A DNA stretch of 34,799 bases. It comes from Candidatus Gastranaerophilales bacterium. GTDB taxonomy: Bacteria > Cyanobacteriota > Vampirovibrionia > Gastranaerophilales > Gastranaerophilaceae. This document shows, piece after piece, positions 1,504 to 3,445 of this stretch (positions are counted from its first letter, which is position 1; each line of letters opens with the position of its first letter). The stretch is taken from positions 1-34,799 of the forward strand of contig CALUVN010000022.1 of NCBI GenBank assembly GCA_944324235.1, read 5' to 3'. The notes beneath the pieces are model-generated. The model saw nothing but the letters and a program-made list of their open reading frames with translations, ran no database searches and was not told the DNA's origin. The position numbers and the translations under genes are program-made.

Positions 1504-1610
1504 GCATTTTTATATTAAGAATGTATAAAGACGGGCGTTTTCAGGATTTATGCAAACCTGTATTATTTTTCTAAAAATTCGTTTTAATTATTAAAAAACT
1601 AAAAAACAGC

Positions 1611-1777
1611 AAAAAAAAACTCTTTCTTTTGAAAGAGCCTTGGAATTTTTTTGTAATTCCTCGTGTGTGTAGAAGGTTAGTGTGTAGTAGGTAGTGTAAA
1701 TAGTAAGTGTGTGTGTATAAGTCTCGTGTTTATTTAATCATTTCATCAAGCATAGCGCTTACATATTAATAAAGTAT
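1611..1777 (-). ncRNA. Putative small RNA, copy A
   Basis: Read on the minus strand, the unit looks like a small RNA gene of about 165 nt. A TATAAT hexamer (1784-1789) precedes an AU-rich 5' part. Then come 60 nt without a single G (1663-1722) that include CUACCUAC and AACCUUCUACAC, a hairpin GGAAUU/AAUUCC (1642-1660), and an intrinsic terminator CTCTTTC-AAAA-GAAAGAG followed by nine T (1611-1637). The CCU motifs could pair with Shine-Dalgarno sequences. The 5' end is a guess from the -10; no good -35 is seen, but a TGTAACGAAATGTAACG direct repeat sits upstream. The architecture (unpaired C-rich motif near hairpins) recalls cyanobacterial Yfr1-like RNAs, but no homology is claimed. Confidence 0.5.
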
Positions 1778-1843
1778 TTTTGAATTATATAATTGCTATA
1801 TAACCGTATTTTCGTTACATTTCGTTACAAAGTTAAAAACAGC

Positions 1844-2012
1844 AAAAAAAAAACTCTTTCTTTTGAAAGAGCCCTTGGAATTTTTTTGTAATTCCTCGTG
1901 TGTGTAGAAGGTTAGTGTGTAGTAGGTAGTGTAAATAGTAAGTGTGTGTGTATAAGTCTCGTGTTTATTTAATCATTTTATTAAGCATATCGCTTACATA
2001 TTAATAAAGTAT
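1844..2012 (-). ncRNA. Putative small RNA, copy B
   Basis: Second copy of the same unit. TATAAT lies at 2019-2024 with the start predicted near 2012. The G-less tract is 1898-1957, the GGAAUU hairpin 1877-1895, and the terminator hairpin 1854-1871 is followed on the minus strand by ten T (1844-1853). The G-less tract is identical to copy A while the region around the predicted 5' end has diverged slightly. Each copy keeps its own terminator, so they look like two transcription units rather than one long RNA. Confidence 0.5.
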
Positions 2013-2059
2013 TTTGGGATTATATAATTGCTATATAACCATATTTTCGTTACATTTCG

Positions 2060-2185
2060 TTACAAAAGACAGGGAATTTTCGCAGCCCAATCCTTGCCGC
2101 TTTTGACATCTGTTCCCAAAAATACAAAGGCATATTCTTCTCCGTTGGTATACAATACGCCCTTAAAGTTTGAACTCTCCAAATT
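2060..2185 (-). pseudogene. Fragment of a lipase-like (alpha/beta-hydrolase) gene
   Basis: An open stretch of about 41 codons on the minus strand, without a proper start, reads ...NFKGVLYTNGEEYAFVF then LGTDVKSGKDWAAKI and stops inside the end of repeat copy B. The pattern 'aromatic-K-x-x-L-Y ... F-x-GTD ... K-D-W' resembles the N-terminal core of class-3-lipase-like alpha/beta-hydrolases (family recall, not searched). Both ends are missing: a stop lies just upstream in frame, and the right part of the domain, including the nucleophile elbow, is absent where the repeat begins. It is probably the scar of a rearrangement that also placed or duplicated the repeat. Confidence 0.4.
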
Positions 2186-2854: not shown

Positions 2855-3445
2855 TTAATCCCCCATAATTTTCCGACTGTCGTGTATCAGATATATCGTA
2901 AATAAAGGAGGATAATTTTTCTTTTTTGATGCATTATAAACACCTGCCCAATTGTAATGATAATATATTTTCTTTGATTTCTTTAAATATCCAGTCTGAA
3001 CTTCTACTTGGATAACATCATAGTCCATACCGTCTAAAAATGGTTTTGGTGGATTGTTCATAATCACTTCCATTGCATATTTATCCAGCTTCGGACTGGC
3101 TTTCTTGGCTCTATAACGACCTATTGGGTTTAATTTTGATATGTAATATTCATAACTTTCTGTGCTGCTATCTATAATCTCTAAATTTGAGATGCTCCCG
3201 TCTTTATGAATTAAATATCGTAAATGTGTAAAAATAAAAGTTCGCCACGGAAATTTTCCTTTGGGTTCAAATGCCTGTGACAATCGGTCTGTGTACTCCG
3301 CAAAATATTGCCGGTAAGGAACGTAAGTTTCTGGTCCGCCATATTGAAATTTATCTATACTTCTCGGTAATTTCTCTGCATAAGATATAGTTATGCTGCT
3401 ATAAAAAATTATTAACATTAATAATATCTTTTTCAAGTTTTTCAT
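2855..3445 (-). CDS. Secreted TonB-C-like protein, copy 1
   Basis: 196 residues. Signal peptide MKNLKKILLMLIIFYSSI... ending in SYA, mature chain starting EKLPR. It shares most of its length with the downstream paralogue, including the tract GGPETYVPYRQYFAEYTDRL, the TonB-C-like core YLIHKDGSISNLEIIDSS, and the ending TIYLIHDSRKI. The copies diverge mainly after residue 150. The TonB_C assignment is by eye and could be another small alpha/beta periplasmic fold. First gene of a two-gene operon; the promoter at 3455-3484 places the start of transcription within a few bases of the ATG, and no Shine-Dalgarno is seen. Confidence 0.8.
   Translation of the reverse strand: MKNLKKILLMLIIFYSSITISYAEKLPRSIDKFQYGGPETYVPYRQYFAEYTDRLSQAFEPKGKFPWRTFIFTHLRYLIHKDGSISNLEIIDSSTESYEYYISKLNPIGRYRAKKASPKLDKYAMEVIMNNPPKPFLDGMDYDVIQVEVQTGYLKKSKKIYYHYNWAGVYNASKKKNYPPLFTIYLIHDSRKIMGD

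Follow-up and report, generated by a model that had tools for sequence, protein, structure and literature searches.

Does the tandem repeat near the start of this 34,799 nucleotide stretch of a Gastranaerophilales genome (the window) encode a small regulatory RNA (sRNA) and, if so, what would control that RNA and on what would it act? The Gastranaerophilales are a common, uncultured and non-photosynthetic gut group of the Cyanobacteriota (Melainabacteria), and the genome to which the window belongs is 99.8% complete, with 1.94 Mb spread over 80 contigs. On the minus strand two direct repeats (1611-1831 and 1846-2066) lie at a spacing of 235 and are 92% identical without gaps and 97% identical with gaps. 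The features of the two units are as follows.

1814-1831, minus strand: HLR1-type direct repeat of unit 1 (GTTACATT-TC-GTTACAAA on the plus strand), an exact match to KTTACAWW-N2-KTTACAWW in a strict scan
1791-1796, minus strand: GCAATT promoter element of unit 1 (probable -35 region), invariant in type A
1762-1775, minus strand: probable -10 region of unit 1, ACTTTATTAATATG, at fixed spacing and kept across paralogue types
1722-1736, minus strand: invariant box of unit 1, UAAAUAAACACGAGA
1663-1722, minus strand: G-free tract of unit 1, unpaired in the predicted fold
1671-1704, minus strand: conserved tract core of unit 1, ACUAUUUACACUACCUACUACACACUAACCUUCU (putative pairing region)
1642-1660, minus strand: hairpin 1 of unit 1 (GGAAUU/AAUUCC), directly 3' of ACGA, from fold and covariation
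1611-1641, minus strand: intrinsic terminator of unit 1
2049-2066, minus strand: HLR1-type direct repeat of unit 2, also an exact consensus match in the strict scan
2026-2031, minus strand: GCAATT promoter element of unit 2, as in unit 1
1997-2010, minus strand: probable -10 region of unit 2, as in unit 1
1957-1971, minus strand: invariant box of unit 2, at which a covariance model match (1845-1971) begins
1898-1957, minus strand: G-free tract of unit 2, a G-free run
1877-1895, minus strand: hairpin 1 of unit 2, of the same sequence as in unit 1
1845-1876, minus strand: intrinsic terminator of unit 2, from sequence and the covariance model match

The original prediction, that of a duplicated RNA gene, is upheld in most of its anatomy. 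The G-free tracts lie at exactly the coordinates given for them, each unit has two hairpins (from fold and covariation), and the terminators end in T runs of 9 and 10. As had also been proposed, the tract and the GGAAUU/AAUUCC hairpin do not differ between the units; the substitutions are confined to the 5' region (1744-1806), and the terminator of unit 2 is one base longer. There is no open reading frame of more than 58 codons in any frame of 1601-2070 and no conserved one, for which reason a peptide-coding reading was dropped. The tract by itself is unremarkable, since 816 kb of this genome contain 14 G-free runs of 60 nucleotides, and 11 C-free runs of that length; the features that go far beyond chance are conservation and covariation, not G-free length. 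The window also contains, at 2275-2853 and 2855-3445, adjacent copies of a gene for a small secreted protein with a signal-peptide-like start, in a repeat that is 81% identical. One copy is without a Pfam match and the other reaches at most a sub-threshold match to TonB_C.

Among 39 type-A units, mean pairwise identity is 0.986 in the tract core, 1.000 in the invariant box, 0.866 in hairpin 1 and 0.673 in the 5' part, compared with 0.315 in the upstream and 0.316 in the downstream flank. Drift of the tract at the rate of its surroundings had been named beforehand as the result that would tell against the prediction, and the opposite is seen. In the predicted fold both hairpins form and the G-free tract is unpaired. 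Covariation was measured in 30 distinct, diverse sequences drawn from across the paralogue types. Overall 97.5% of cells are paired, and 11 of the 15 pairs have changes on both sides: two in hairpin 1 (98.3% of cells paired) and all nine in the terminator (97%). The covariation score of 0.606 compares with 0.200 in shuffled alignments (0/500 as high) and with 0.02-0.17 when the structure is slid along the alignment; the alignment was fitted to the model and leans towards structure, but the margin is large despite this. Covariation of the hairpins indicates that the RNA is encoded on the minus strand. At the gathering score Rfam 15 gives no match in the window, the interval itself yielding sub-threshold matches only at a permissive threshold, and the literature searched yielded no account of sRNAs from Gastranaerophilales or Melainabacteria. 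Judged by sequence comparison, the units are two tandem genes of a real, strongly conserved sRNA family which, as the original prediction held, lies outside those described.

The family is widely distributed. Within the family, 176 of 191 genomes have DNA that matches the unit at E-values up to 0.001 (some matches being partial), and an exact 26-base piece of the tract is present in at least 115 stretches of genome contigs. The search of relatives by covariance model that had been suggested was run with a model, R1, built from 23 sequences, all from other genomes with that of the window excluded, and with hairpin 1 and the terminator as its structure. R1 recovers both units of the window (E about 5e-21). 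In the family it detects the sRNA in 110 of 117 genomes, which represent 39 of 41 genera, and a genome usually has two to four copies. A broader model, R2, was run on 292 genomes of the phylum and its matches are confined to the same family, apart from a single weak one to a different family of the order; no relative was found in photosynthetic cyanobacteria in this phylum-wide search. A targeted search of 30 genomes gave plausible relatives in three families of the order (f2, f43 and f44). These relatives outside the family of the window (f1) are divergent with modest E-values; the two f2 copies retain ACUACCUACCUUACCUUACC tracts and an upstream TTAAG..TGTAA or similar motif. Weak model matches in distant families (L293, L294, L296) resemble no more than a terminator and were not counted, and the core has no exact match in viral contigs.

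R1 also detects two paralogues in the genome of the window. Type B (G000:C2:16415; E 1e-7) has AAUACCUUCUACUUUCUACCUACUAACCUUUUACACGAGGAAUUGU, and type C (G000:C42:13596; E 0.006) lacks the CUAACCUUC motif and keeps the promoter, a CA-rich tract, ACGAGGAAUG...CAUUCC and the terminator. Comparison of types A, B and C indicates that promoter and 3' scaffold are common to the paralogues and that they diverge in the unpaired tract, a pattern known from other families of sibling sRNAs. Neither the paralogues and the order-wide spread nor the HLR1-type site formed part of the original prediction. Copies often lie at contig ends (L009, L024, L035 and many other loci), as if the repeats break short-read assemblies, and the copy numbers should accordingly be read as minima. 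In some genomes copies that lie far apart score identically or nearly so (G221:C2:96217 and 107250; G040:C5 and C6; G379; G384), which points to recent dispersal or gene conversion. The sRNA core is also carried by contigs titled Brachyspira, Heliobacteriaceae and Fusobacterium (L039, L089, L090, L116), one of which (L090) has a glnA neighbour as well. The public names of these four are probably wrong and the metagenome-assembled genomes (MAGs) those of Gastranaerophilales.

What would control the RNA was approached by aligning 122 distinct type-A promoters on GCAATT. TGTAA(A/C) is found at -23 in 119 of the 122 and a second half-site, T-N-T-N-A, lies ten bases further upstream, giving the layout TGTAAM-N4-TGTAAM. 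The HLR1 element, KTTACAWW-N2-KTTACAWW, is bound by RpaB (PMC13421787; PMC9241938). Complete HLR1 in reverse orientation occurs at this single position in 44 of the 122 promoters, compared with 0.005 expected from shuffles, and most of the non-exact promoters have one degenerate half-site. The core promoter is likewise of fixed layout: the spacing from GCAATT to ACTTTA (ACTTTATWWATATG) is 21 in each of the 26 diverse promoters where both elements could be located, the intervening sequence being unconserved outside type A. The TATAAT box of the original prediction is present in both units; it is, however, no conserved element, as the copy at 2019-2024 in unit 2 reads TATATA in other genera, and it is probably not the -10. 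The invariant 21-base spacing, set against this variability, argues for TATTAAT/TATATAT as the -10 region. This lies about 20 nucleotides further downstream, so that the RNA is probably of about 150 nucleotides and not of the 165 originally proposed, and we infer starts near 1993 (unit 2) and 1758 (unit 1). With the favoured -10 the HLR1 would lie at about -73 to -56, and at about -54 to -37 were the upstream TATAAT used. Cyanobacterial RpaB sites activate at -66 to -45 and repress when they overlap -38 to +23 (PMC13421787), and by analogy with these rules, and with the favoured -10, the HLR1 would be more likely to activate than to repress the predicted sRNA promoter.

Three OmpR-type (Trans_reg_C) regulators are encoded in the genome of the window. 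The one at C11:45244 is the RpaB equivalog by NCBIfam NF045944 (361.7 bits against a cut-off of 330), and the remaining pair, at C6 and C20, reach about 205 and 211 bits on the same model. The 2013 description of the lineage noted that Melainabacteria retain homologues of RpaA, RpaB and NblS in spite of lacking photosynthesis, perhaps in a different role (PMC3787301). The strict HLR1 occurs ten times in 816 kb of the genome; two occurrences are in the sRNA promoters and most of the others lie 75-170 nucleotides upstream of genes. One of the genes concerned, P0001 (777 amino acids, membrane-type; L227:3811-6144, minus strand), served as a positive control for HLR1. Most of its orthologues across genera (L373-L402) keep the strict HLR1, which is oriented forward and precedes (G)CAATTTT; this is an argument, separate from that of the sRNA, for a genuine function of the motif in these bacteria. 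P0001 thus provides a second conserved HLR1 promoter in non-photosynthetic Cyanobacteriota. A further strict HLR1 lies between divergent genes (L220:8291), one with a ferritin-like start, and at further strict sites the gene that follows encodes a protein of unknown function, in several cases one whose N-terminus bears a VNFQ/VSFSG-like motif (L236, L243). A separate observation is that in stretches of the same genome (L218-L257) TATAAT is enriched 4-18 nucleotides upstream of start codons (39 compared with 12 in a control interval), which suggests many very short-leader or leaderless mRNAs.

On this evidence the sRNA is very probably controlled by an OmpR-type regulator, and RpaB, which we infer to bind at the HLR1-type repeats of the sRNA promoters, is the likely one. 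That the upstream repeat of the same sRNA is owned by one of the other two OmpR-family regulators, at C6 or C20, would be in keeping with the presence of three Trans_reg_C proteins and with the degenerate distal half-site, TTAAG and not TGTAA, of many promoters. This is unlikely given the exact HLR1 sites in the window and in more than a third of the promoters, and given that of the three regulators a single one exceeds the cut-off for RpaB.

On what the RNA would act is the harder question. That the tract targets ribosome-binding sites, as originally predicted, is a plausible hypothesis; genome-wide, complementarity does not exceed that of controls. In a search that covered about 42% of the genome, as stretches, the tract has no excess of complementarity over dinucleotide shuffles to 741 start regions of the same genome (43 below -14 kcal/mol compared with 32.3, sd 8.1, in shuffles), and in 59 genomes the GAAGGTTA...ATG pattern is as frequent as its reversed control. 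A general anti-Shine-Dalgarno activity was rejected, as shuffled tracts bind these 741 start regions equally well. A joint test with orthologues in another genus (250 pairs) gave 6 at -14 compared with 2.5, with 4 of 100 shuffles as high, an excess that is at best suggestive. P0001 was discarded as a second candidate target because its pairing is not conserved (56 of 200 shuffles were as good), and was kept as the negative control of the target test.

One conserved candidate does stand out. The best of the 250 pairs is the gene at G000:C7:26684, for a 506 amino acid protein with hydrophobic stretches and no Pfam or NCBIfam match, homologues of which are found in 43 of 78 genomes. The start regions of these homologues carry (A/G)GAAGG followed by a varied GUAG/GUGUAGG, which fit ACCUUCU and CUACCUACUACACAC. 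As the candidate was picked as the best of 250, its strength in the single genome is not independent evidence, whereas the test on its orthologues is: their mean duplex energy is -19.6 compared with -16.2 (sd 0.87) for shuffled sRNA (0/300), while seven control families have energies between -6 and -11 and z between -2.3 and 2.9. The second target site is weaker by itself: 0 of 500 trials with shuffled mRNA and 35 of 500 with shuffled sRNA did as well, so that it is stronger than the former and only marginally better than the latter. In the leader of the candidate GCAATT and a TATATA run directly precede AGAAGG, so that AGAAGG may be conserved as part of the promoter or may sit near the 5' end of the mRNA. 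In the target promoters the common sRNA variant TATTAAGTTTTGTAAA recurs as its reverse complement, TTTACAAAACTTAATA, at a near-equal distance from GCAATT. With the motif thus inverted, a common regulator and a feed-forward loop become an attractive hypothesis.

The near-invariant tract, at 34 nucleotides, is longer than antisense pairing usually needs, and protein binding could account for this. The RNA might then sequester a protein, either an RNA chaperone or a CsrA-like regulator, by way of the ACGAGGAAU hairpin and of ACACAC/ACGAG motifs that recur in the RNA, the tract being part of the binding platform and not an antisense seed. The ACGAGGAAU hairpin is indeed common to paralogues with differing tracts, the 15-nucleotide invariant box likewise contains ACGAG, and the lack of a genome-wide excess of mRNA complementarity would be expected. 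It also counts against the base-pairing reading that no Hfq was found in the genome of the window. Yet hairpin pairing takes up the GG of the putative GGA motif, the best conserved of the long stretches in type A is the CU-rich, unpaired core, a feature suited to base pairing, and one conserved candidate mRNA target exists; we therefore think sequestration improbable, and base pairing, with one candidate target, remains our best guess at the mechanism. A role of the units in cis, as leader or attenuator of glnA (70-1458, TIGR00653), which lies about 150 nucleotides downstream on the same strand and is the commonest neighbour of sRNA loci, can be dismissed with high confidence, since each unit has its own promoter and terminator, an adjoining glnA is mostly divergent (60 loci, u1, compared with 17, d1, that have it downstream on the same strand) and many loci adjoin instead what we take, from reading the protein sequences, to be tsaD, gapA or other genes (glnA having been assigned by profile test). 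The independence of the RNA from its neighbouring gene argues for action in trans rather than in cis.

Taken together, we favour with fair but incomplete confidence a tandem, trans-acting sRNA of a Gastranaerophilales family, under OmpR-family/RpaB control, that pairs with start regions. Each unit would be transcribed into an RNA with a 5' part, a long unpaired C/U/A tract, ACGA with a short hairpin, and an intrinsic terminator. An OmpR-family response regulator, most likely RpaB, would bind the HLR1-type repeat just upstream of the core promoter. The unpaired tract would pair with the start regions of selected mRNAs and lower their translation, with the membrane-type protein gene (506 amino acids) as the best candidate target. 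With the same motif inverted in the target promoter, regulator, sRNA and target may form a feed-forward loop.

By analogy, the family would work most like LhrC and the csRNAs and be wired like RpaB-PsrR1, while belonging to none of these. LhrC1-5 of Listeria monocytogenes are multicopy, G-poor and LisRK-dependent, and use redundant pyrimidine-rich sites to block translation at the start region of a cell-surface protein mRNA (PMC4132741). The likeness lies in several near-identical copies, some clustered (here two in tandem, with paralogues), that are G-poor with several pyrimidine-rich sites and that, to judge here from a promoter motif, may answer to one response regulator. LhrC differs in its UCCC motifs, of which the tract in the window has none (ACCU and CCUUC being present instead), in that control and targeting have been proven in Listeria and are predicted here, and in having no sequence relation to the units (no Rfam match). 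The csRNAs of streptococci are CiaR-controlled siblings with the direct repeat TTTAAG-N5-TTTAAG and mostly an anti-start-codon CAU (PMC3091779). They share with the present family the sibling copies, an OmpR-type direct repeat in the promoter and hairpins that include a terminator, and their unpaired stretch complementary to start regions may have a counterpart in the tract, for which there is one conserved candidate and no genome-wide excess. The CiaR repeat does not occur, TGTAAM-N4-TGTAAM standing in its place.

PsrR1 of Synechocystis is a trans-acting member of the RpaB/HLR1 regulon and forms a feed-forward loop with RpaB on shared targets (PMC13421787). The present family resembles it in the HLR1 of the promoter and in the presence of an encoded RpaB, as would befit a member of that regulon; it differs in that the photosystem and phycobilisome mRNA targets are absent here, and no similarity of sequence was seen (no Rfam match in the window). 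Yfr1 (RF01116), of 54-69 nucleotides, has an ultraconserved ACUCCUCACAC between two hairpins (PMC2190773). The analogy with Yfr1 made in the original prediction holds as far as an sRNA of the cyanobacterial phylum with a conserved, C/U-rich unpaired motif and a terminator hairpin. The undecamer ACUCCUCACAC is, however, absent from the unit, the fold is without a stable 5' hairpin beside the tract, and the Yfr1 model scores no better than chance in the genome of the window: its best match there, of 13.3 bits where the gathering score is 38, lies elsewhere than in the units, and the window itself gives none.

The sRNA is present in nearly every genome of the family that was searched, and its HLR1 promoters provide a lead on the role of RpaB without photosynthesis. 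HLR1-type promoters name candidate members of a regulon, which makes the question of RpaB function testable, and the covariance model can be used to annotate MAGs and metatranscriptomes of Gastranaerophilales. A wider proposal, which we put forward tentatively and with rather more doubt than belief, is that RpaB controls both the order-wide sibling sRNAs and envelope-protein genes, through the motif in opposite orientations, in the non-photosynthetic Gastranaerophilales. If true, this would be a feed-forward circuit like that of RpaB, PsrR1 and photosystem I with envelope proteins as its output, and the wiring of RpaB to an sRNA may predate photosynthesis or be independent of it.
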